From Candidatus Tectimicrobiota bacterium (GTDB lineage: Bacteria > Tectomicrobia > Entotheonellia > Entotheonellales > Entotheonellaceae), in assembly GCA_026005175.1 (NCBI GenBank), contig BPKO01000001.1, positions 682,001 to 746,000 of the forward strand: a stretch of DNA of 64,000 nucleotides, written 5' to 3'. The translations under genes and the position numbers were made by a program. The notes under the pieces are model-generated. The model had not been told where the DNA came from. It did no database searches and saw only the letters and a list, made by a program, of their open reading frames with translations. Shown here in pieces: positions 1 to 49,014 of this stretch (positions within the stretch are counted from its first letter, which is position 1; every line of letters begins with the position of its first letter).

Positions 1-2115
<2,115 letters not shown>

Positions 2116-38543: not shown

Positions 38544-39041
38544 TCAACGTGTTGCCCCGCTCCACATCTCCCACAGGGCGACGAGCAGCATGCCGCCGTA
38601 GCCCAGCCACATCGCCACCCAGGCCAGCAGCTGCAGCAAGGCCCAGGCCGGGGAGAGGTAACGCAGCAGCCAGTAAGCCGCCAGGTCGCCCAGGGAGCCC
38701 CCCAGGGCCAGCAGGATAAGTGCGGCTTTCCAGGGAGTGGCAAGGCCGGTGGCCAGGCAGAGGTGGGCCAAAATCAAGAACACCACCCCCATCATGAAGG
38801 CGTGGAAGTGGGTGAGCTCCAGGAGCTCGCCAAAGGTCTTGGGAAAGGCCATCGCCTCGCCCAGCTCGCCGCCGCGAAAGTATGCCGCGATGCGCGCCAG
38901 CGAGGGGCCGATGCGCCACAGCTGCATGACACCGTTGGTGCCCAGCCCCAAGGCGACAAAGAGCAAAAAGCCCGTGTACACCAGTTTGACCTCGCGCTGC
39001 GCCCGGCGCAGGCGAAAGCCGACTCGGACGAAGTCGCGCAT
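38544..39041 (-). CDS. Integral membrane protein of flavin/iron operon
   Basis: 165 residues with four predicted membrane helices: VYTGFLLFVALGLGTNGVMQ, HFHAFMMGVVFLILAHLCLA, ALILLALGGSLGDLAAYWLL and ALLQLLAWVAMWLGYGGMLL. Conserved-looking His residues in ELTHFHAFMMG and LAHLC could bind haem, but no family is recognised. Its start overlaps the apbE stop by one base (TGATG), so it is co-translated with the flavin-transfer genes. A role in passing electrons to the periplasmic FMN protein is plausible but unproven. Confidence 0.75.
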   Translation of the reverse strand: MRDFVRVGFRLRRAQREVKLVYTGFLLFVALGLGTNGVMQLWRIGPSLARIAAYFRGGELGEAMAFPKTFGELLELTHFHAFMMGVVFLILAHLCLATGLATPWKAALILLALGGSLGDLAAYWLLRYLSPAWALLQLLAWVAMWLGYGGMLLVALWEMWSGATR

Positions 39042-39904
39042 CAGACGCTCTCCTGCCAGAAGCGGCGCAAGCCAGGGGTGCAGCACGGCACGCCGCGGGG
39101 GCCGACGTATAGGACCTCCACGCCGCGGAAGCGCTTGAGCAGCCGCCGCCAGCGGCGGCCGTAAACCAGTACCGCGGTGCTCAGGGCTTCGGCCAAAGTG
39201 GCCGTGGGGGCCAGCACGGTGCTTTGCCGCCACTGCCTGAGGGGCTGGCCGCGGCGCGGGTCGACCACGTGCCCTATGCCCGGGGCCAGCTCGCGCCCCA
39301 AAGTGCAGGAGGTGGCCAGCGCCCCTTCCCCCATCCAGAGCAGGCCCAGCCACGCGCCTTCCTGCCGGCCGCGCACCGCGATGGGCCAGCGCTCGCCGCC
39401 CGGCGGCCTCCCCAGGGCGTAGAGGCTGCTGTCGCCAAAGTTGACAAACGCGCAGCGCACGCCCCCGCGGCGCAGGCGCGCCACCACGCGGTCCACCGCA
39501 TACCCCTTGCCGATGCCTCCCAAGTCGAGGCAGGCCCCCGGCGCCAGCGCCACCCAGCCCGGCGCCGGCAGCGAGAAGGCCGGCCGCGGCACGCCAGCAG
39601 AGCCCTGGCGCAGCACGCCGCCCACCGCCACATCAAAAGTGCCGCCGGTGCGGCGCTGCAGCCGCGCACAGCGCTTTAGCAGGGTCCACAGCGGCCGCGG
39701 CACGCGCACCGCGCCGCGGCCGGCCTGGCGGTTGAGGCGGCTGAGGGCACTGACGGGGTCGTGAGCGCTCAACAGCCCTTCCAGGCGCCGCACATCTTCA
39801 GCGCAGCGCCGCAGCAAAAAGCGGCCGTGCGCTTCGGGTATACCAAAGAGGGCCACATCGAGCAGGGTGCCCATGGCGTAGTGGAGCTCGCGCACTCCCT
39901 TCAT
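39041..39904 (-). CDS. apbE: ApbE-type FAD:protein FMN transferase
   Basis: 287 residues. ApbE enzymes use FAD to attach FMN covalently to a Ser/Thr in exported target proteins. Visible motifs: LHYAMGTLLDVALFG at the start, SALSRLNRQAG, the nucleotide-binding CLDLGGIGKGYAVDRVV, and DPRRGQPL then STVLAPTATLAEALSTAV with metal-site positions. No signal peptide is evident from ATG 39904, so either the start is internal or it acts in the cytoplasm. It overlaps the FMN-binding gene (its likely substrate) by four bases. Confidence 0.92.
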   Translation of the reverse strand: MKGVRELHYAMGTLLDVALFGIPEAHGRFLLRRCAEDVRRLEGLLSAHDPVSALSRLNRQAGRGAVRVPRPLWTLLKRCARLQRRTGGTFDVAVGGVLRQGSAGVPRPAFSLPAPGWVALAPGACLDLGGIGKGYAVDRVVARLRRGGVRCAFVNFGDSSLYALGRPPGGERWPIAVRGRQEGAWLGLLWMGEGALATSCTLGRELAPGIGHVVDPRRGQPLRQWRQSTVLAPTATLAEALSTAVLVYGRRWRRLLKRFRGVEVLYVGPRGVPCCTPGLRRFWQESV

Positions 39905-40464
39905 GGCGGCTTCCCAAACAGCACTTGCACCAGGGCCAGGGCCTTGCGCACGCCGCGGCCGATGCTGTAGCACGACAGCGTGGCGCCGGTGATGTTGCGG
40001 ATGTCGCGGTAAGGCAGCAGGGCATCGCGCAGGCTCTTGCCGGTGTACTGGGCCAGGAAGCGGCCGTAGCGCACCTCGCCGCCGTAAGGCTCGCGGTAGA
40101 CCATCACCGCCACGTCCTGCACCCGCCCGTTGGGGCGTACGCCGACGATAAAGGTAATCGGGCGGTGCTTGCCGATTTCCTCGACGATGACCCCGTAGCC
40201 CAGCAGGCGCTCCCCCCGCTTGGCCTTGAAAATTACGTATTCGGGCTCCCACAGCGAGGGGCGCGTGGCGCCCAGAAGCGCCTGCACCTTGGCGCGCAGC
40301 GCCGGGGTGGCAGGCACCACCAGGCGCTCAAAGGCGGTGGCGCGGGGAAACACCGCCGCCGGGGCCTCCGTCTCGCTGAGGTAGACGCCAGCCTGCGCCG
40401 CGGCGCGCGCCGCCAGCGCGAGCGGCGTCAAGAGCCCCTGCAAGAAGGCGCGGCGCTGCAGCAT
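39901..40464 (-). CDS. Exported FMN-binding-domain protein (ApbE substrate)
   Basis: 187 residues. A twin-Arg-like signal (RRAFLQGLLTPLALAARAAA) directs export. The FMN-binding domain lies in the second half, ending with NITGATLSCYSIGRG, where the Thr of TGAT-x-S is the expected site of covalent FMN attachment by ApbE. The middle shows GYGVIVEEIGKHRPITFIVG, typical of these domains. Predicted periplasmic one- or two-electron carrier. It starts four bases before the upstream porin stop region and overlaps apbE, so the three are one unit. Confidence 0.88.
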   Translation of the reverse strand: MLQRRAFLQGLLTPLALAARAAAQAGVYLSETEAPAAVFPRATAFERLVVPATPALRAKVQALLGATRPSLWEPEYVIFKAKRGERLLGYGVIVEEIGKHRPITFIVGVRPNGRVQDVAVMVYREPYGGEVRYGRFLAQYTGKSLRDALLPYRDIRNITGATLSCYSIGRGVRKALALVQVLFGKPP

Positions 40465-40468
40465 GGCT

Positions 40469-41887
40469 TTAGAAGCCAAAAGCCACCCCCACCAAGAACG
40501 CCTGCGCGGTATCTTCGTCTTCCTGAGCCGGCAGGAAGTTGGTGAGCCCGGCCAAGGAATCGGCGTCGGTAAAGGTGACTTCATAGGCCAGGGAAAACAC
40601 CCACAGCGGCGTCGGCCGGTACGCCAGGCCCAGCGTCAGGCGGTTCAGCGTGGCGTCGGCTGTCTCAAAAGCGGTGAGCACCCCATTGGCAAACTTAACC
40701 TCGGTGACCCGCTTGTCAAAAAAGACCTGCTCCCAGCGCAGCACGGGGACAAGCTGCGGGTTGGCAAAGCCCCGCCCCAGAACCGTCTGGCTCAGGGCGG
40801 CCGGCCAGAAAGGCAGGCGCAGCTCCACCCAGTAGCCGCTTTTGCTGCGCGCCAACTCGGCCAGCTCGAACTCGATTTCCGACTCAAACGCTGGGCTGGC
40901 GGCGCTGGGGGTGGCAGCCGCCTGCGTCACCACCGTGCGGGCAAAGGCGCGGGCCACCGCTTCGATGTTCTCCCAGCGGGTAAAGACGTACTCCCCTTCC
41001 ACTTCGAGCGGCCCGAGGCTCACCTTGCCGTCCACCCCCACCGACCACACGGTCTCCTCGGCGTCAAGAAAATCGGGGGTATACTCGCCCACGTAGCCCG
41101 AAACGGCCAGCTCGTAGCCCAGAAGCGGGCTAAGAAGCAGGCGCCCCACCACCGCCTTGTTCTCGTTGAAGTCTTTGTCAAAAGGGCCGGCCACCGGCCG
41201 GAACACGGCCTCCAGCTCCAGCTTGTCACGGCTTTCCAGGCGCGTCTGGGCGATTTCTTCCACCTCGGCGTCGAGCACCACGCCGTTGACCAGGTAGAGC
41301 TCGTAGCGCAGCAGCCCCTGGCGCCCCAGCGGCGTCTCGCCGGCAAAGCCAGCGCCCAGCTCGGTCCAGGCCGCCTTGGCGGGCAGCACCGGCACCCCGC
41401 GGTCCACCAGCGGCCGGCGCGGCAGGTTCCAGCGGTTGTCGTCATGGAAAATATTGAACCGCCCTAGCGGCGGCAGCACCGCTCCCACCCGCAAGTTAAA
41501 AAACGGCGCCAAGTCGTATTGTACCCAGGCCTGCTCCAGCTTGATTTCCGACTTGTTCGAGCCTTCCACCGCCTGCTCCACTTTGAGCCCGCCTTCGGTG
41601 GCCTCTACTTCGCGCTCCAGCTCCAAGGCAGTAAAGCGCTCGAATTCCAGCTCGAAGACAAAGCGCAAGCGCTCAGCGGGCGCGGCGTCCAGCGTCAGCA
41701 CGAAGCGCCGGAAGTCAAAGCCAGCGTTGCTCTCTTCCAAGTCGTTGGCCTCGAACTTGACCGAGCCGTAGCCGCCCAGGCGTACCCGCCCCGCCACCGC
41801 CTCGTACACCGCCTGCTGCGCCTGCCCGCTGCCTGCAAGACTCACCAGCCCCAGCACTGCGGCCCAGACAACCCGTCTCCGTCGCAT
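40469..41887 (-). CDS. Outer-membrane porin (phosphate-selective O/P-like)
   Basis: 472 residues. Signal peptide RRVVWAAVLGLVSLAGSGQA, then VRLGGYGSVKFEANDLEESN and FDFRRFVLTLDAAPAERLRF, characteristic of OprO/P-like 16- to 18-strand barrels. AWVQYDLAPFFNLRVGAVLP and FNIFHDDNRWNLPRRP follow. The last strand AFLVGVAFGF ends in Phe, as needed for barrel assembly. ATG 41887 follows GGAGGGG. Preceded by a Fur box, so probably induced under iron limitation; its cargo could be iron chelates. Confidence 0.87.
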   Translation of the reverse strand: MRRRRVVWAAVLGLVSLAGSGQAQQAVYEAVAGRVRLGGYGSVKFEANDLEESNAGFDFRRFVLTLDAAPAERLRFVFELEFERFTALELEREVEATEGGLKVEQAVEGSNKSEIKLEQAWVQYDLAPFFNLRVGAVLPPLGRFNIFHDDNRWNLPRRPLVDRGVPVLPAKAAWTELGAGFAGETPLGRQGLLRYELYLVNGVVLDAEVEEIAQTRLESRDKLELEAVFRPVAGPFDKDFNENKAVVGRLLLSPLLGYELAVSGYVGEYTPDFLDAEETVWSVGVDGKVSLGPLEVEGEYVFTRWENIEAVARAFARTVVTQAAATPSAASPAFESEIEFELAELARSKSGYWVELRLPFWPAALSQTVLGRGFANPQLVPVLRWEQVFFDKRVTEVKFANGVLTAFETADATLNRLTLGLAYRPTPLWVFSLAYEVTFTDADSLAGLTNFLPAQEDEDTAQAFLVGVAFGF

Positions 41888-41906
41888 CGCGCCCCCCTCC
41901 AAAATT

Positions 41907-41938
41907 GATCTTGAAAATAGTTTTCAGGATCAGATAAT
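41907..41938 (+). promoter_or_regulatory. Fur box and divergent promoter between porin operon and iron transporter
   Basis: TGAAAAT-A-GTTTTCA (41912-41926) fits the Fur 7-1-7 palindrome at 11 of 14 positions and sits inside a 25-base near-palindrome ending in GATC on both sides (41907-41931). For the plus strand, TTGAAA (41911-41916), 16-base spacer and GATAAT (41933-41938) form a promoter that Fur would block. Confidence 0.75.
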
Positions 41939-41987: not shown

Positions 41988-42992
41988 ATGGGACGTGGGC
42001 GCCTGTTTTGCTCTCTTGTTGGCCTGGTGGGGCTGGCTCTGATGCTGCCGGCGGCGGAGGCCGCCGAGGTGGTGGTTTACTCTTCGCGCATCGAGCAGCT
42101 CATCAAGCCGATGTTTGATGCCTTCACCGCCGCCAGTGGCATTCCGGTGCGGTACTTTACGGCCAGCGAGGCCGAACTCATCGAGCGGCTCAAGGCCGAA
42201 GGGGCCAACACCCCGGCCGACCTCTTTATGACCGTGGACGCCGGCAACCTCTGGCTTGCCGAGCAGGCCGGCCTGCTTCAGGGCGTGGCCTCGCCGGTGA
42301 TCGCCCGCCACATCCCGGCCCACCTGCGCGCCAAGGACAACGCCTGGGTGGGGCTTTCGGTGCGAGCGCGCCCCATCATGTACAGCAGCGAGCGCGTCAT
42401 GCCCGAAGAACTCTCCACGTACGAAGCGCTGGGGGATCCCAAGTGGCGAGGCCGGCTCTGCCTGCGCACCTCGCGCAAAGTGTACACGCAGTCGCTGGTG
42501 GCCGCGATGCTCAAGGCCCTGGGAGAAGCGCGCACGGAAGCGGTGCTGCGCGCCTGGATGGCCAACGAGCCGCGCATTTTCAACAGCGACACCAAAATGC
42601 TGGAGGCGATTGCCGCCGGCCAGTGCGACGTCACCATCGCCAACACCTACTATCTGGCCCGCCTCAAGGCCAAGGATCCCGACTTTCCGGTGGCGGTCTT
42701 CTGGCCCAACCAGCAAGACCGCGGCGTGCATGTCAACATCTCCGGTGCCGGCATCACTCGCCACGCCAAGCACCGCCAGGAGGCCCTGCGGCTGCTAGAG
42801 TTCCTGAGCGGGCCGGAGGCGCAGCGGCTTTACGCCGACGCCAACTACGAGTACCCAGCCAATCCGGCGGTAAAACCCCATCCCCTGATTGCCGCCTGGG
42901 GTACCTTTAAAGCCGATACCGTCGACGTGGCCGTCTTTGGCGAGTTGCAGGCGGCGGCGGTGAAGCTGCTCGACCGTGTGGGCTACCGCTAA
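41988..42992 (+). CDS. fbpA: Ferric-iron ABC transporter substrate-binding protein (FbpA/FutA-like)
   Basis: 334 residues, exported (signal LVGLVGLALMLPAAEAAE). The fold starts VVVYSSRIEQLIKPMFDAF and includes GISVRAR-type segment at about 120-130, FNSDTKMLEAIAAGQCDVTI and the iron-ligand tyrosines in ANTYYLARL. ISGAGITRHAKHRQEALRLL is the typical lobe-2 segment. Binds ferric iron in the periplasm and delivers it to FbpBC. Follows a Fur-box promoter and precedes the permease by 10 bases. Confidence 0.93.
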   Translation: MGRGRLFCSLVGLVGLALMLPAAEAAEVVVYSSRIEQLIKPMFDAFTAASGIPVRYFTASEAELIERLKAEGANTPADLFMTVDAGNLWLAEQAGLLQGVASPVIARHIPAHLRAKDNAWVGLSVRARPIMYSSERVMPEELSTYEALGDPKWRGRLCLRTSRKVYTQSLVAAMLKALGEARTEAVLRAWMANEPRIFNSDTKMLEAIAAGQCDVTIANTYYLARLKAKDPDFPVAVFWPNQQDRGVHVNISGAGITRHAKHRQEALRLLEFLSGPEAQRLYADANYEYPANPAVKPHPLIAAWGTFKADTVDVAVFGELQAAAVKLLDRVGYR

Positions 42993-43002
42993 AGGAGGCC
43001 TG

Positions 43003-44622
43003 ATGCGCTGGACCCCCTGGCCGCTGGCCGCCGCCCTGGTGGCCCTGCTGGTGGCCACCCCCCTTTTGGTGGTGGCGGCTTCCCTGCTGACGCCGAGCCT
43101 TGAGGTATGGCGCCACCTGTGGCAGACGCAACTGCCCGGGCTCATCGCCCACACCCTGGCGCTGATGGCCGGGGTGGGCCTGGGCGCCGGGGGGCTGGGC
43201 ACCGGCCTGGCCTGGCTGGTGGCCACTTACCGCTTTCCCGGCCACGCCTGGCTGGAGTGGCTCCTCGTCTTGCCGCTGGCGGTGCCGACGTACGTGATGG
43301 GCTTTGTCTTTCTTGGCCTCTTTGACTACGCCGGCCCGGTGCAGCGCTTGTGGCGCGGTCTTTTTGGCGCCGGGGCCTGGTTTCCCGAGGTGGCCTCTTA
43401 CGGCGGCGTGGTGGGGGTGATGAGCCTGGTGCTTTACCCTTATGTCTACGTGCTGGCGCGGGCGGCGTTCCTGGCGCAGTCGGCCACCTTGCTGGAAGCG
43501 GCCAGGGCGCTGGGCGCCCGGCGAGCAGAAGTCTTCTGGCGCGTGGCGCTGCCCCTGGCCCGCCCGGCCATCGCCGCCGGGGTGGCGCTGGCCGTCATGG
43601 AGGCCCTGGCCGACTTTGGCACGGTGGCCATATACAACTACCCGACCTTTACCGTAGCCATTTACCGCGTCTGGTTTGGCCTCTTCGACCGCGGCGCCGC
43701 CACCGAGCTGGCCGCCTTGCTCCTGACCTTCACCCTGACCCTGTTTTTTCTCGAGCGCTGGCTGCGCGGGCAAGCCCGCTTCGCCGCGGGCAGCAGCCTG
43801 CGCCCGCGGCAGCCGGTGCGGCTGCGCGGCTGGCGGGCAGGGCTGGCCACCGCTGCCGCCACCGCCGTGGTGGCGGTGGCCTTTGGCCTGCCGGTGGGCC
43901 AGCTGCTGGGGTGGACCCTTGCCAGCGTGGGTGGCAGCGCGTATGATGCCCACTACCTGCAGCTGGTGCGCAACACCGTGCTGCTGGCCGCCCTCACCGC
44001 TGTGGTGGCGCTGGTGGCGGCGGTGGTGGTGGCTTACGGGCTCAGGCTGAGCCGCAGTCGCTTCGTGGCGTTTTGCGGGCGCTTGGCCACCCTGGGCTAC
44101 GCCCTGCCGGGGTCGGTGATCGCCGTGGGGGTGCTGGGGCCGCTGAGCTTCCTTGATCGCACCCTCGACGGCTGGCTGCGCGCTACCTGGGGTGTGTCGA
44201 GCGGCCTGCTGCTCACCGGCTCCTTTGCCGGCTTGGTCTTTGCGTACGTGGTGCGCTTTTTGGCCATCAGCTGCCAGGCGGTGGAAGCCGGCCTGGCGGC
44301 CATTACCCCGAGCATGGACATGGCCGGGCGCTCCTTGGGGGCTACCGCGGGAGGGGTGCTGTGGCGCCTGCACTTGCCGCTGCTGCGCGGCGGCCTGTGC
44401 GGTGCCGCCTTGCTGGTGTTTGTCGACGTCATGAAGGAGATGCCGGCGACGCTGCTGCTGCGGCCTTTTGGGTACAATACCCTGGCGGTGCGCATTTGGG
44501 AGCTAACTTCGGAGTCTTTGTGGGAAGCGGCGGCGCTGCCGGCGCTCACCCTGGTGGCCGCCGGCCTGCTCCCGGTGGCGGTGCTGGTGCGCCGCAGCCG
44601 GCGCCCCGGGGCAGCCCCTTAA
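43003..44622 (+). CDS. fbpB: Ferric-iron ABC transporter permease (FbpB-like, fused two-domain)
   Basis: 539 residues, about 12 membrane helices in two homologous halves, each with an EAA loop: EAARALGARRAEVFWRVALP and AGRSLGATAGGVLWRLHLPL. This double-length arrangement is standard for FbpB. FVDVMKEMPATLLLRPFG is also characteristic of iron permeases. ATG 43003 is preceded by AAAGGAGG. Works with FbpA and FbpC in the inner membrane. Confidence 0.94.
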   Translation: MRWTPWPLAAALVALLVATPLLVVAASLLTPSLEVWRHLWQTQLPGLIAHTLALMAGVGLGAGGLGTGLAWLVATYRFPGHAWLEWLLVLPLAVPTYVMGFVFLGLFDYAGPVQRLWRGLFGAGAWFPEVASYGGVVGVMSLVLYPYVYVLARAAFLAQSATLLEAARALGARRAEVFWRVALPLARPAIAAGVALAVMEALADFGTVAIYNYPTFTVAIYRVWFGLFDRGAATELAALLLTFTLTLFFLERWLRGQARFAAGSSLRPRQPVRLRGWRAGLATAAATAVVAVAFGLPVGQLLGWTLASVGGSAYDAHYLQLVRNTVLLAALTAVVALVAAVVVAYGLRLSRSRFVAFCGRLATLGYALPGSVIAVGVLGPLSFLDRTLDGWLRATWGVSSGLLLTGSFAGLVFAYVVRFLAISCQAVEAGLAAITPSMDMAGRSLGATAGGVLWRLHLPLLRGGLCGAALLVFVDVMKEMPATLLLRPFGYNTLAVRIWELTSESLWEAAALPALTLVAAGLLPVAVLVRRSRRPGAAP

Positions 44623-44634
44623 GAGGCACGCGAC

Positions 44635-45669
44635 GTGGCGTTTTTGCAGCTCAAAGGCCTGGCCAAACGCTACCGGCCGCACGAGCCGCCAGCGGTAGAG
44701 GACCTCAGCTTCGGCGTGGCGCAGGGGGAAATCGTGGCCCTGCTGGGGCCCAGCGGCTGCGGCAAGACGACGACGCTGCGCCTCATTGCCGGCTTTGAGC
44801 GCCCCGACGCCGGCAGCGTGGAGCTGGGCGGCACCCTGCTGGTCGACCGCCACCGCTTCGTGCCCCCCGAGCGGCGCGGCGTGGGCATGGTGTTTCAGGA
44901 CTTTGCGCTTTTTCCCCACCTCACGGTGGCCGCCAACGTGGCCTTTGGCCTGCGGCGGCTCGACGCCGCGGCGCGCGCCGCCCGCGTCGAGGAAATGCTC
45001 GCCTTGGTTGAGCTCACGGCCCTGGCGCGGCGCTACCCGCATGAGCTCTCCAGCGGCCAGCAGCAGCGCGTGGCCCTGGCGCGTGCCCTGGCGCCGCGCC
45101 CGGCGGTGCTGCTGCTCGATGAGCCCTTCAGCAACCTCGACGCCCGCCTGCGCTGGCAGATGCTGCACGAAGTACGCGCCCTGCTGCGCCGCCTGCACGT
45201 CACCGCCCTCTTTGTTACCCACGACCAGGAAGAAGCCTTTGCCCTGGCCGACCGCGTGGGGGTCATGCAGCAGGGGCGGCTGGAGCAGCTGGACACCCCC
45301 GAGGCCCTTTACTACGCGCCGCGCACCCGCTTTGTTGCCAGTTTTGTCGGCCCGGCCAGCTTCCTCCCCGGCCAGGTGACGGGCGGCGGCATCCTTACCG
45401 AGCTGGGCACCTTTCCCAACGACACCGGCCTTTCCCCCGGCGCCCGCGTCGAGGTCATGCTGCGACCCGACGCCTTGCACCTGCGCCCGCACCCGCAGGG
45501 CCAAGGACGCGTGGTGGCCCGCCACTTCCGCGGCCCCTTCACCCTCGTCGAGGTGCAGCTCCCCTCCGGCGCCCGCCTGCAGGCCGCCCTCTCCGGCACC
45601 GGCGCCCTGCCAAGCCGCGTGCACGTGGAAGTCGACCCGCAGCGCGCCGTTGCCTTCCCTTGCGCCTAG
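44635..45669 (+). CDS. fbpC: Ferric-iron ABC transporter ATPase (FbpC-like)
   Basis: 344 residues. Walker A is LLGPSGCGKTTTLRLIAG, the signature is LSSGQQQRVALARALA, Walker B is VLLLDEPFSNLDARL and the H-loop is VTHDQEEAF. A C-terminal TOBE-type regulatory region follows (VEVMLRPDALHL; GPFTLVEVQLPSGARL), as in FbpC. GTG 44635 is used with GAGG upstream; the permease stop lies 12 bases before. Last gene of the fbpABC operon. Confidence 0.95.
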   Translation: MAFLQLKGLAKRYRPHEPPAVEDLSFGVAQGEIVALLGPSGCGKTTTLRLIAGFERPDAGSVELGGTLLVDRHRFVPPERRGVGMVFQDFALFPHLTVAANVAFGLRRLDAAARAARVEEMLALVELTALARRYPHELSSGQQQRVALARALAPRPAVLLLDEPFSNLDARLRWQMLHEVRALLRRLHVTALFVTHDQEEAFALADRVGVMQQGRLEQLDTPEALYYAPRTRFVASFVGPASFLPGQVTGGGILTELGTFPNDTGLSPGARVEVMLRPDALHLRPHPQGQGRVVARHFRGPFTLVEVQLPSGARLQAALSGTGALPSRVHVEVDPQRAVAFPCA

Positions 45670-45711
45670 CACACCCACTTACAAGGGGGTGGCTTCCCTA
45701 GGGATTTTATG

Positions 45712-45734
45712 ATAATGAGAACTGTTCTCATTAT
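45712..45734 (+). promoter_or_regulatory. Fur box upstream of XRE regulator 1
   Basis: A perfect 11-1-11 palindrome, ATAATGAGAAC-T-GTTCTCATTAT, containing the 7-1-7 core TGAGAAC-T-GTTCTCA. It matches two overlapping Fur dimers and is the strongest Fur box in the window. It overlaps a GATAAT -10-like hexamer. Confidence 0.85.
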
Positions 45735-45755
45735 TCGCCGCGAGGAGAGGAGCGT

Positions 45756-46010
45756 ATGGACGCGATGCCGCAGGCAGATGTATCGCAGGAGCAAGTCCTT
45801 CGCGCTTTTGGCAAGCGCTTGCAGGCCCTGCGCAAGGCGCGCCGGCTGCGCCAGCTCGACATGGCGGCGCGGGGCTTGAGCTACAAGTACTACCAGCGCC
45901 TCGAAGCCGGGCAAGTCAACCCCACGCTGCTCACCCTGTGGCGCGTCGCTGCGGCGCTGCAGGTGCCGCTGCGCGCCTTGCTCGACGACCAGGGCGTCCC
46001 TGGGGCCTGA
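45756..46010 (+). CDS. XRE-family regulator 1
   Basis: 84 residues, a single HTH_3 domain: FGKRLQALRKARRLRQLDMA, then the recognition-helix area GLSYKYYQRLEAGQVNPTLL and LWRVAAALQVPLRALLDD. Starts at ATG 45756 after GAGGAGAGGAG. It is a paralog of the regulator at 46795 (shared YKYYQR-x-E-x-G-x-x-N). Expression is probably iron-controlled through the adjacent Fur box. Its targets are unknown; the ferritin-like gene follows 83 bases downstream. Confidence 0.85.
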   Translation: MDAMPQADVSQEQVLRAFGKRLQALRKARRLRQLDMAARGLSYKYYQRLEAGQVNPTLLTLWRVAAALQVPLRALLDDQGVPGA

Positions 46011-46093
46011 AGGGGCACTTTAAGAGGGGTGTCTGCAAGGGCGGGGCGGGCGTATATTGAGGGGCGGTGGAACCTTGGGAGAGGAGAAGGCCT

Positions 46094-46558
46094 ATGGACG
46101 TGCAAGCCGCCCTGCAAGTCTTGAACAAGGCCCTGGCGCTCGAGTATGCGGGGGTCTTGCAGTACCTGCAGCAGAGCTTCTTGGTGCAGGGGCCTTACCG
46201 CGAAGTGCATGCCGACTTTTTCCGCAAGCTGAGCGACGAGTGCCGCACGCACGCGGCTCGCCTCGGCACTTACATTGTGCTCCTCAACGGCGTCCCCACC
46301 GTGGAGCCGGCTCCCATCAGGCAGTCCACCGACCTCACCGAGATGCTCAAAAACAGCCTCGAGCTCGAGCGCGAGGCGTACAACACCTACCTTGAAGGCG
46401 TGCGCGTGGCGGCCGACGAGGTGCCGCTGCGCTTGCTGTGCGAGGAGCTTGCTTACGACGAGCGCCTGCACATGGAAGCGTTCGAAAAGATGCTGGCGCA
46501 GAAAGCCCTGCGCCTTGCCGACGCCGAGCGCGAGATCGTGCTTACCCGGAGTGCCTGA
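46094..46558 (+). CDS. Ferritin-like diiron protein (bacterioferritin-type bundle)
   Basis: 154 residues, four-helix bundle. Ligand pattern: Glu in NKALALEYAGVLQYLQQS, E and H in SDECRTHAARLG, Glu in ELEREAYNTYLEGV, and DERLHMEAFEKML. The spacing fits a diiron ferritin-like protein rather than Dps. It lacks the Met52-type haem ligand that would mark a true bacterioferritin as far as I can see. Start ATG 46094 follows GAGGAGAAGG. Role could be iron storage, ferroxidase or peroxide removal in the iron region. Confidence 0.8.
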   Translation: MDVQAALQVLNKALALEYAGVLQYLQQSFLVQGPYREVHADFFRKLSDECRTHAARLGTYIVLLNGVPTVEPAPIRQSTDLTEMLKNSLELEREAYNTYLEGVRVAADEVPLRLLCEELAYDERLHMEAFEKMLAQKALRLADAEREIVLTRSA

Positions 46559-46832
46559 GCGGCAGCAGCTTCCCCTTGCCCGGGCGCAGCAGGCCGCTGG
46601 CCTTTTGCAGCAGCGCCAGCAGCGGCTGAAGCTGCTGCGGGTCGAGGGGCAGCGTGCGCTGGGGATACCAGCCCACCCCGGTCCCCCAGCGCGACACGCG
46701 CAAGACGAGCTGAGAAGTCCCGTCCTCGCGGCGCCACAGAAGCTCGAGCCGCTCGTCGGGCGCCGCGCCGGCCACCGTCCCGAGCAGCCGCTCCTCAAGG
46801 GGAGAGGATGTTCTGCGTGGAAAGGCGTGCAT
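46542..46832 (-). CDS. Hypothetical protein co-transcribed with XRE regulator 2
   Basis: 96 residues, no signal or membrane segment. Contains RLELLWRREDGTSQLVLRVS and LPLDPQQLQPLLALLQKA. Starts 38 bases inside the XRE gene and ends 17 bases inside the convergent ferritin-like gene. Family not recognised. The extensive overlaps weaken the call, but the amphipathic pattern is protein-like. Confidence 0.5.
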   Translation of the reverse strand: MHAFPRRTSSPLEERLLGTVAGAAPDERLELLWRREDGTSQLVLRVSRWGTGVGWYPQRTLPLDPQQLQPLLALLQKASGLLRPGKGKLLPLRHSG

Positions 46833-47070
46833 CGTCTTTGCTCTCCGCGTTTGGCGTATCGCAAAACAGCTCGTGCAGCGGCACCTCGAGGAGGGCGGCT
46901 AGCCGCGCCAGGGTGCGCACCGTGACGTTGATGCGGCCGCGCTCAATGCGCTGGTAGTACTTGTAGTTGATGCCGCGCTCGGCCACCTGCCACTGCGTCA
47001 GGCCCCGCGCCTGCCTGAGCTGCCGCAGGCGCTTCCCTAGCCGTCCCAACACGTCTCTCTCTGCCGCCAC
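46795..47070 (-). CDS. XRE-family regulator 2
   Basis: 91 residues with one HTH_3 domain: LGKRLRQLRQARGLTQWQVA, then GINYKYYQRIERGRINVTVR and LARLAALLEVPLHELFCD. Clearly related to regulator 1 at 45756 across the whole domain. The tail (NAESKDDARLSTQNILSP) differs. A Fur box lies 16 bases upstream of the ATG. The pair of paralogs under parallel Fur control suggests a layered iron response. Confidence 0.85.
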   Translation of the reverse strand: MAAERDVLGRLGKRLRQLRQARGLTQWQVAERGINYKYYQRIERGRINVTVRTLARLAALLEVPLHELFCDTPNAESKDDARLSTQNILSP

Positions 47071-47086
47071 GCCGCATCCTCAATAA

Positions 47087-47101
47087 TGATAATAATTCTC
47101 A
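47087..47101 (-). promoter_or_regulatory. Fur box upstream of XRE regulator 2
   Basis: TGATAAT-A-ATTCTCA fits the Fur 7-1-7 palindrome at 13 of 14 positions. It lies in the 37-base gap between the XRE gene and the gene before it. Confidence 0.8.
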
Positions 47102-47107
47102 TCCTCA

Positions 47108-47608
47108 TCATACGACATCGGGCGCCGCGGGTCCAGCCCCACGGAAATGGGGGTCGGCCAGGGTCTGCAGGGCCAGCACCTCCACCTCCTCGACGAGGCG
47201 CTCTTCGAGCTTGCGGAAGAAGGGCTCCGGGCGGCGCGCCACGCTCCACAGCAAGGCGGCCAGCCCTTTGCCCCGCAGCCTTGCCCGCTCCCGGGCCCAG
47301 CGCGCCGCCAGTTCGGCCAGCGGCTGCTCCCGGAAGCGCGGCGCCTCTGCCTGCACCTGCGCCGCCAGCAGCGCTTCCAGGTGCTGGGCCGCCGGCGCAC
47401 TGGCCCGTGCCAGCCGCACCAGGTCGGCCAGCAGCGCGGCGTCGCGCACCCCTTCCGGACGCGCGGCGCCGCAGAGCTGCACCCATGCCGCGGTTGCTGC
47501 CGTGCGGTCGAGCGCCAGCACGAGGAGCAGACGCAGGAGGCGAGGCGAGCAGGCGGCGAGCGGCCGCTGTGGCGTTTCGGGGGATGCTGGTGCGGCCGGC
47601 TCCGGCAT
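47108..47608 (-). CDS. Hypothetical helical protein in iron region
   Basis: 166 residues, Ala/Leu/Arg-rich and predicted almost wholly helical (LLRLLLVLALDRTAATAAWV; HLEALLAAQVQAEAPRFREQ; EERLVEEVEVLALQTLADPH). ATG 47608 is preceded by GAGGGAG. No family recognised. It follows the 71-residue protein by 22 bases and precedes the Fur box of XRE 2, suggesting it belongs to the operon that starts at the 48248 Fur box. Confidence 0.6.
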   Translation of the reverse strand: MPEPAAPASPETPQRPLAACSPRLLRLLLVLALDRTAATAAWVQLCGAARPEGVRDAALLADLVRLARASAPAAQHLEALLAAQVQAEAPRFREQPLAELAARWARERARLRGKGLAALLWSVARRPEPFFRKLEERLVEEVEVLALQTLADPHFRGAGPAAPDVV

Positions 47609-47630
47609 GGCCGCGCTCCCTCGCTGGGTC

Positions 47631-47846
47631 TCAGCAGCCCGCTTCGCCGCGCGGCGGCAGGAGCTCGGCGCGGCGCTGCGCCACCAGGGCGTCACGGGCC
47701 TCTCTTACCAGCAGGACCAAATCGGCAAAGGCCTGCTCGCGCAGGCGCAGGGTGACAAAGCCGCAGGCGAGGTGGATGACTCCGTCGGGACACTGAAAAA
47801 CGGCACCAAAGCCTTCTCTTTCGCTGAGCATGGGGATATCGGCCAT
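47631..47846 (-). CDS. Small conserved protein, paralog A (CPDGVIHL type)
   Basis: 71 residues. Core sequence: FQCPDGVIHLACGFVTLRLR followed by EQAFADLVLLVREARDALVA. It is about 40% identical by eye to the 70-residue protein at 47990, aligning without gaps from CP(D/E)G through the EQAF helix. A strand-turn-strand then helix layout is likely. ATG 47846 follows AAAGGAGAG. I do not recognise the family. Context makes it part of the Fur-controlled set. Confidence 0.7.
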   Translation of the reverse strand: MADIPMLSEREGFGAVFQCPDGVIHLACGFVTLRLREQAFADLVLLVREARDALVAQRRAELLPPRGEAGC

Positions 47847-47989
47847 GGCTTCTCTCCTTTGCCTCCTCCACAAAACCGCCTGGGGTGCCAGACCTGGCCA
47901 CCGCCACGGCTCCGCTTTCAGCCCTGTAAGGAAGGGAATCGCAACCCGCCCCCCCTCGGGAAACGCCGCGCCAAACACGGCCCCGCCGC

Positions 47990-48202
47990 CTAGCACGGCG
48001 GCAAGTGGTGCCGCTGTGGTGGCATCAGGAGACGGCTGAGGCGGCGCTCGGCCAGGGCAGCAAAGGCCTCCTGTGTCATGTCGGCAAGCTCGATGAAAGC
48101 CTGCTCGTGCAAATGCAGGGTGACGTATCCCCAGCTCAGGTGAATGGCCCCCTCAGGGCAGCGAGACACCACCCCCACGCCTGGCTTCTGACTCAAGACC
48201 AC
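47990..48202 (-). CDS. Small conserved protein, paralog B (CPEGAIHL type)
   Basis: 70 residues with SRCPEGAIHLSWGYVTLHLH and EQAFIELADMTQEAFAALAE, plus a His-rich end (QRHHLPPC) that could bind metal. GTG 48202 has AGGAGGAG eight bases upstream. A Fur box lies 45 bases before the start. It is a duplicate of the 71-residue gene 143 bases downstream. Family unknown to me; a metal-related regulator or carrier is possible but not shown. Confidence 0.7.
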   Translation of the reverse strand: MVLSQKPGVGVVSRCPEGAIHLSWGYVTLHLHEQAFIELADMTQEAFAALAERRLSRLLMPPQRHHLPPC

Positions 48203-48247
48203 TGTCTTCTCCTCCTGTTGGCCGCAGCGCTGCCGCCGCGGCTTATA

Positions 48248-48262
48248 TGATAATGAATTTCA
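48248..48262 (-). promoter_or_regulatory. Fur box upstream of small paralog B
   Basis: TGATAAT-G-AATTTCA fits the Fur 7-1-7 palindrome at 12 of 14 positions. It lies upstream of the minus-strand small-protein operon. Confidence 0.65.
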
Positions 48263-48387
48263 AAATCATGATACGTCGCCTGCAGGCGCCTGTAAACCTC
48301 CTTCTGTGGTGGTTTTTACACCATCGCAGAGGTTCTCCTGCGCCGCAGGGCGCTGGCAGCTCTCGCTGGCCGCCCCTCCTCAGGGGC

Positions 48388-48410: not shown

Positions 48411-48977
48411 TCAGGCGACTTGCCAGGAGGGGGGCAGAGAAAGCAGGGCGGGGGGTTGCGGCAGGCGGGCGGCGAAGTCGGCGAGGGCGCGCCGCTGGCG
48501 GCGCGTGGGGGCCACTTGCGGGCGGCGGCGCTTGAGGTAAGCCAGGGCCTGGGAGGGACTCCACCCCTGCGTGGCCACGTACCAGCAGGCCAGCAAGGTG
48601 GCCGAGCGGCCGATACCGGCGGCGCAGTGCACGTACACGGCGCGGCCGGCGGCGAGCTGGTCCGCCATCCAGGTCAGGGCGTCGTGGAGCTGAGCGGGGG
48701 TGGGCGGCAGGGCATTGGGCACCGGCAGCCACAGGGCGTCCAGGCCGGCCCGCCGGAGGTGCTGGTGGTCGTGGGGGCGCTCGGCGCAGAGATTGACCAC
48801 CGCCCCCACGCCCTGCTGCTGCAGCCGCTCTAGGTCGTCGAACATGGGCAGGCCCCCGAGCAAGAGGTGTTCGTCGATGACGTCCCACCAGTTGAGGGCC
48901 AGCACCAGGCCCCAGTAAGCACGGGTAAGCACCAGGGAAGCCGTCTGCAGCCACGGCCAGCCGCGCCCGGGACGCAT
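48411..48977 (-). CDS. Dual-specificity protein phosphatase-like protein
   Basis: 188 residues. The C-x5-R active site is VHCAAGIGRSATLLACWY (Cys at about residue 118), with the general-acid region around LWLPVPNALPPTPAQLHDAL. The N-terminus has one hydrophobic helix (AYWGLVLALNWWDVID) and LLLGGLPMFDDLERL, typical of DSP/PTPMT1-like enzymes. Could act on phosphoproteins or phosphatidylglycerol phosphate. ATG 48977 chosen; a GTG lies one codon upstream. Confidence 0.87.
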   Translation of the reverse strand: MRPGRGWPWLQTASLVLTRAYWGLVLALNWWDVIDEHLLLGGLPMFDDLERLQQQGVGAVVNLCAERPHDHQHLRRAGLDALWLPVPNALPPTPAQLHDALTWMADQLAAGRAVYVHCAAGIGRSATLLACWYVATQGWSPSQALAYLKRRRPQVAPTRRQRRALADFAARLPQPPALLSLPPSWQVA

Positions 48978-49014
48978 CACGGCTCTCCCCAGAGCCCTGC
49001 TGGCCGCCGGCGGC

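Follow-up and report, generated by a model that had tools for sequence, protein, structure and literature searches.

A predicted Fur-controlled iron-acquisition island with an accessory cassette of under-described gene families in a Candidatus Tectimicrobiota bacterium

Layout of the iron island

The window analyzed here, a 64,000-nucleotide stretch of contig BPKO01000001.1 from a Candidatus Tectimicrobiota bacterium, carries between 45.7 and 48.3 kb a cassette of small genes interspersed with Fur-type boxes (Table 1). The initial annotation had read this segment as a 2.6-kb iron cassette, suggestive of an undescribed iron-response module and made up of three Fur boxes, two paralogous XRE regulators, a ferritin-like protein, a helical protein, and two paralogous proteins of about 70 residues. 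All of these are found there, and to them we add two features that had been omitted, a fourth box at 41908 and a gene for a 96-residue protein, whose two ends run into XRE2 and the ferritin-like gene, respectively. The cassette does not stand alone, being instead the right end of a ~10.7-kb, partly familiar iron island with its left limit at about 37.5 kb, in which genes for Fur (fused to a rubrerythrin-like domain), ApbE, an FMN-binding protein, a porin, and FbpABC come before it. Taken together, the locus represents a known kind of Fur-type iron island in variant form, and its accessory genes have been little described. It resembles Fur regulons with FbpABC-type transporters in holding fur, fbpABC, and Fur-type boxes in one locus, and it differs from them in its two Fur-boxed XRE genes, its several unnamed families, and the fusion of Fur to a rubrerythrin-like domain.

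Table 1 Features of the iron island, in window coordinates
Feature	Position	Strand	Evidence or remark
Fur-family regulator with C-terminal rubrerythrin-like domain, 319 aa	37525..38484	-	PF01475 E=1.4e-29, PF02915 E=3.6e-12
ApbE (FAD:protein FMN transferase)	39041..39904	-	PF02424 E=7.4e-44
FMN-binding-domain protein	39901..40464	-	PF04205 E=9.8e-7
Porin-like outer-membrane protein	40469..41902	-	weak PF07396, 19.7 bits (cut-off 20.9)
Fourth Fur-type box, porin gene/fbpA interval	41908..41930		28.2 bits
fbpA-type ferric-binding protein	41988..42992	+	SBP_bac_8 E=2.3e-20; syntenic in G002/G003
fbpB-type permease	42976..44622	+	41% to syntenic G002/G003 ORFs; named from sequence reading and order
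fbpC-type ATPase	44635..45669	+	49% to syntenic G002/G003 ORFs; named from sequence reading and order
Fur-type box 1, 22 bp before XRE1	45712..45734		32.9 bits
XRE1, small HTH-only regulator	45756..46010	+	HTH_3 38.5 bits (cut-off 23)
Bacterioferritin-like protein, altered di-iron site	46094..46558	+	PF00210 E=4.3e-21; PDB 9qq4 E=4.9e-16; ligand alignment
96-aa protein, unnamed family (GLGWYxQKTLRL motif)	46542..46832	-	homologs in G003, G286
XRE2, XRE1 paralog	46795..47070	-	HTH_3 45.1 bits (cut-off 23)
Fur-type box 2, 13 bp before XRE2	47083..47105		27.0 bits
Helical protein; possible alternative start ATG at 47608	47108..47695	-	profile match to N-terminal part of DUF2325 proteins
S1, 71 aa, unnamed CGxIHLxxGPVTLRL family	47631..47846	-	model pLDDT 89
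S2, 70 aa, tandem paralog of S1	47990..48202	-	sequence comparison with S1
Fur-type box 3, 42 bp before S2	48244..48266 (other register of palindrome 48250-48272)		22.9 bits

The Fur-rubrerythrin fusion has ORFs about 67-71% identical to it in two relatives of the same family (G002 and G003), and the genome encodes a second Fur-family gene besides it. A Fur protein with a possible di-iron domain of its own would be an unusual iron regulator. Directly past the cassette lies a dual-specificity phosphatase gene (48411-48980, minus strand; PF00782 E=3.7e-17), and an ORF at 64-2115 (plus strand), read by eye, is presumably a catalase-peroxidase (KatG).

To the left of the fourth box, on the side away from fbpABC, the porin-like, FMN-binding, and ApbE genes follow one another, an arrangement that suggests a possible flavin-based reduction of iron at the cell envelope. 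Flavin-based iron reduction has been discussed for other flavinylation clusters (PMC8238504). As in such iron-assimilation clusters, the iron uptake genes of the island are accompanied by ApbE and an FMN-binding protein; the difference is that these two are partnered here with a porin-like protein and fbpABC, and that iron reduction is a prediction from this arrangement.

Fur-type boxes and gene order in related genomes

The textbook 7-1-7 Fur consensus is TGANAATNATTNTCA. By inspection, the box at 45712 departs from it at two positions, those at 41908 and 48244 at one each, and that at 47083 at none. Scored with a weight matrix built only from the Fur-like sites of G002 and G003, these four boxes outrank all other positions of the window, with 22.9-32.9 bits against a top score of 12.9 bits in ten Markov-shuffled windows. 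As the training sites were picked for their resemblance to the Fur core, the independent evidence is the position of boxes in relatives: in both G002 and G003 the XRE ortholog is immediately preceded by one, and a second lies in the fur-fbpA interval; boxes 2 and 3 of the cassette have no counterpart there for comparison. The DUF2325 genes of these two genomes are each preceded by a perfect 7-1-7 match, and canonical Fur-like boxes lie upstream of two members of the ~70-residue family in myxobacterial loci (L067 and L070). Across the 3.99-Mb genome, the pattern ATAATGA-N9-TCATTAT is matched with two or fewer mismatches at the three cassette boxes only (box 3 with one mismatch), a scan that is partly circular because the pattern was derived from those boxes; at up to three mismatches there are 30 matches, compared with 8 for a reversed control pattern. 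Judged by their sequences, the four promoter palindromes are of Fur type and above background, and they are predicted to bind Fur.

The order fur, fbpA, fbpB, fbpC, XRE is the same in G002 and G003, where the XRE1 ortholog follows fbpC (60-64% to the window protein). XRE1 and XRE2 are 52% identical over 69 residues (E=3e-22), and both score above the HTH_3 cut-off. XRE1 is the copy retained in synteny; XRE2 is a paralog that has diverged further. G003 also has a second XRE copy, with a box before each; this copy lies in a heme-uptake region (L114, G003:C1:1942000-1961900) that has most of the gene types of the cassette, among them a DUF2325 protein whose N-terminal part matches the helical protein and a pair of 96-residue and ferritin-like genes, as well as Fur-like boxes. 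The region also encodes two di-heme proteins, imelysin, a TonB-type receptor, and a heme-type ABC transporter.

The whole gene set of the cassette was not found in any other genome examined, so it is not a fixed module. In other genomes the cassette genes travel in different subsets, and relatives of every gene type occur either in iron or heme loci or as part of the same gene pair. The initial annotation had named a lack of co-occurrence as speaking against its module; the neighborhood comparison found the opposite, since the genes recur in iron and heme loci of other genomes. What survives of its proposal is the link to iron, with Fur-like boxes conserved in position and genes in iron or heme loci, and what falls away is the self-contained 2.6-kb unit.

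Accessory protein families

S1 and S2 are 48% identical over 60 residues and are closer to each other than to the remaining members of their family. No strong third copy was found in the genome, and neither protein has a convincing match in Pfam, NCBIfam, or PHROG. The conserved family motif is C-x-C-G-x-I-H-L-x-x-G-P-V-T-L-R-L, of which S1 and S2 retain the first Cys, the His, and the Gly and do not keep the second Cys. The family was not found in the other four genomes of the phylum searched; gain of the family and then tandem duplication would fit as its history here, and the two duplications in the cassette look like separate events. Searching plasmids with S1 returned a single weak match, and the L054/L077 match in a genome of the same class is no homolog, as it stems from a chance frame within a long ORF that reads as PriA.

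In a sample of the phylum of Citreicoccus, the family is present in 58 of 146 genomes. An earlier scan with three sequences had returned no loci, and a broader scan of genome contigs returned 18. Heme oxygenase is encoded directly downstream in 17/17 named Myxococcaceae-type loci; these come from close relatives and so do not count as 17 separate events. Imelysin, di-heme proteins, Fur, and a DUF2470/CREG protein are encoded in the vicinity of more distant members, and other such members lie near genes that we take, from reading of the sequence, to be feoAB, TonB-receptor, and fecBCD-type genes; in an uncontrolled count, three of ~14 divergent loci (L064, L066, and L121) have no clear iron gene. 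A record titled Comamonas sp. KCTC 72670 (L088, BNCN01000001.1) has a Myxococcaceae-like pair of small-protein and heme-oxygenase genes and may be misnamed. Cys-containing small proteins are encoded near the family gene in two different genomes (L119, 1360-1590, minus strand; L120, 331-810, minus strand); they are alike by eye (CLPYGC.. and CAPYCP..) and could be a further partner.

The AlphaFold model of S1 is confident and has a bbbba fold, for which the best structural matches are mostly to the nucleic-acid-binding folds of Pur-alpha, Sub1/PC4, and YdbC, with Z of about 5. Pur-alpha (Z 5.4, rmsd 2.5 over 59), MoSub1 (Z 5.3, rmsd 2.9 over 58), and PC4 (Z 4.9, rmsd 2.5 over 52) all fall below Z 8, where a match can reflect a common arrangement. 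A distant member, L122, matches DUF6686 (PF20391) with E=5e-4 and 20.5 bits, below the cut-off of 23.9; a C..C..IHLAW..LTLHL motif is common to both, whereas S1 and S2 do not match the family. A literature search found nothing on DUF6686 or on Fur and heme oxygenase in Myxococcus.

The helical protein has no Pfam match. Its profile matches the N-terminal part of the DUF2325 (PF10087) proteins of G002 and G003 (E about 1e-6), while the DUF2325 domain itself is absent. In a genome of another phylum (G061), an FMN-binding gene (E=7e-50 to the window FMN-binding protein), a small-protein gene, and a helical-protein homolog stand in a row, in what reads as a porin/FMN-binding operon.

The ferritin-like protein is clearly homologous to bacterioferritin over the four-helix domain and differs from it in that the helix-B Glu of ExxH is Cys. 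In the ligand alignment the window protein keeps the other di-iron ligand positions and is thereby short of the complete bacterioferritin set at helix B; its relatives in G003 and in another genome, G286, lack the helix-B Glu and have lost further ligands. Because of these altered or lost ligands, classical iron storage is doubtful. The gene is convergent with the 96-residue gene in three genomes, those of the window, G003 (in the heme/imelysin region), and G286. The 96-residue protein has no Pfam match, and its homologs were found with E=2e-8 (G003, pairwise) and E=5e-12 (G286). A link between this family and the ~70-residue family was dropped, as the profile overlap spans 21 columns only; weak matches of the 96-residue profile to designed TPR repeats among PDB sequences were a summation artefact, and structural matches from a single-sequence model (pLDDT 61) were set aside.

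Predicted regulation and role of the cassette

The explanation that we favor, and consider probable, is that the cassette is the accessory part, at one end, of an iron-acquisition island that Fur represses and iron starvation turns on. When iron is replete, iron-loaded Fur, probably the Fur-rubrerythrin fusion at 37.5 kb, would occupy the four boxes and shut off fbpABC, the porin/FMN-binding/ApbE genes, both XRE genes with their partners, and the putative S2-S1-helical-protein transcription unit. As iron falls, all of these would be expressed, and the transporter and the probable flavin-based reduction system would import iron. The two small XREs are best read as predicted second-tier DNA-binding regulators, a tier to which the small proteins perhaps also belong, and together with the helical protein and the ferritin-like/96-residue pair the small proteins would assist in regulating or handling iron as it enters.

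In three genomes each iron-linked XRE gene has a box immediately upstream, which could also mean that the palindromes are XRE operators, through which XRE1 and XRE2 regulate both themselves and the iron genes with Fur not directly involved. We think this improbable, as the sites agree with the classical Fur core, without any mismatch at 47083 and before the DUF2325 genes of G002 and G003, and similar boxes precede small-protein genes in L067 and L070, where an unsystematic look noticed no such XRE. We think it likewise improbable that a PerR-like sensor, either the Fur-rubrerythrin fusion or the product of the second Fur-family gene, binds the boxes in response to peroxide or redox state rather than iron. 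The rubrerythrin-like domain of the regulator and the existence of the second gene would suit such a sensor, as would the Campylobacter DUF2325 protein that is under PerR control (PMC9426514); however, the genes alongside, and those that recur as partners, are for the uptake of iron and heme, and the boxes carry Fur-type TGA/TCA ends. Finally, gene sets vary among genomes, and none of those examined has all of them, as would be expected if the unnamed genes were passengers, brought under Fur control by where they lie and without a part in iron metabolism. This seems to us the least likely account, given that the gene types each turn up independently elsewhere, in iron loci or as the same convergent pair, and that every predicted transcription unit of the cassette has its own box.

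The closest analogy for S1, S2, and their family is with HemP/HmuP/ChuP, small regulators with a Fur-type box that are encoded by the first gene before heme or iron genes (PMC9131926). The small size, the Fur-type box, and the position ahead of heme/iron genes are alike; the difference is that S1 and S2 match no Pfam family. A Pfam search at E<=1 returned nothing concerning HemP, the presence of a HemP model in that library being unconfirmed. A HemP-like regulatory role is suggested as an analogy rather than as membership. A more speculative proposal, which we regard as rather doubtful, is that S1 and S2 represent an undescribed multi-phylum iron-starvation family with a PC4/PUR-like fold that binds RNA or DNA, tunes iron and heme uptake in a HemP-like manner with an independent origin, and makes up, with the Fur-controlled XREs, a second tier below Fur.

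At least three unnamed or poorly described families, namely the ~70-residue CGxIHLxxGPVTLRL family, the 96-residue GLGWY family, and the DUF2325-N-like helical protein, are tied to predicted Fur control here through position, synteny, and recurrence, which makes the small cassette proteins good candidates for overlooked iron-starvation proteins. Heme oxygenase immediately follows the ~70-residue gene in the loci examined from Myxococcus and Corallococcus, which opens the role of this family to experiments in a standard laboratory bacterium.
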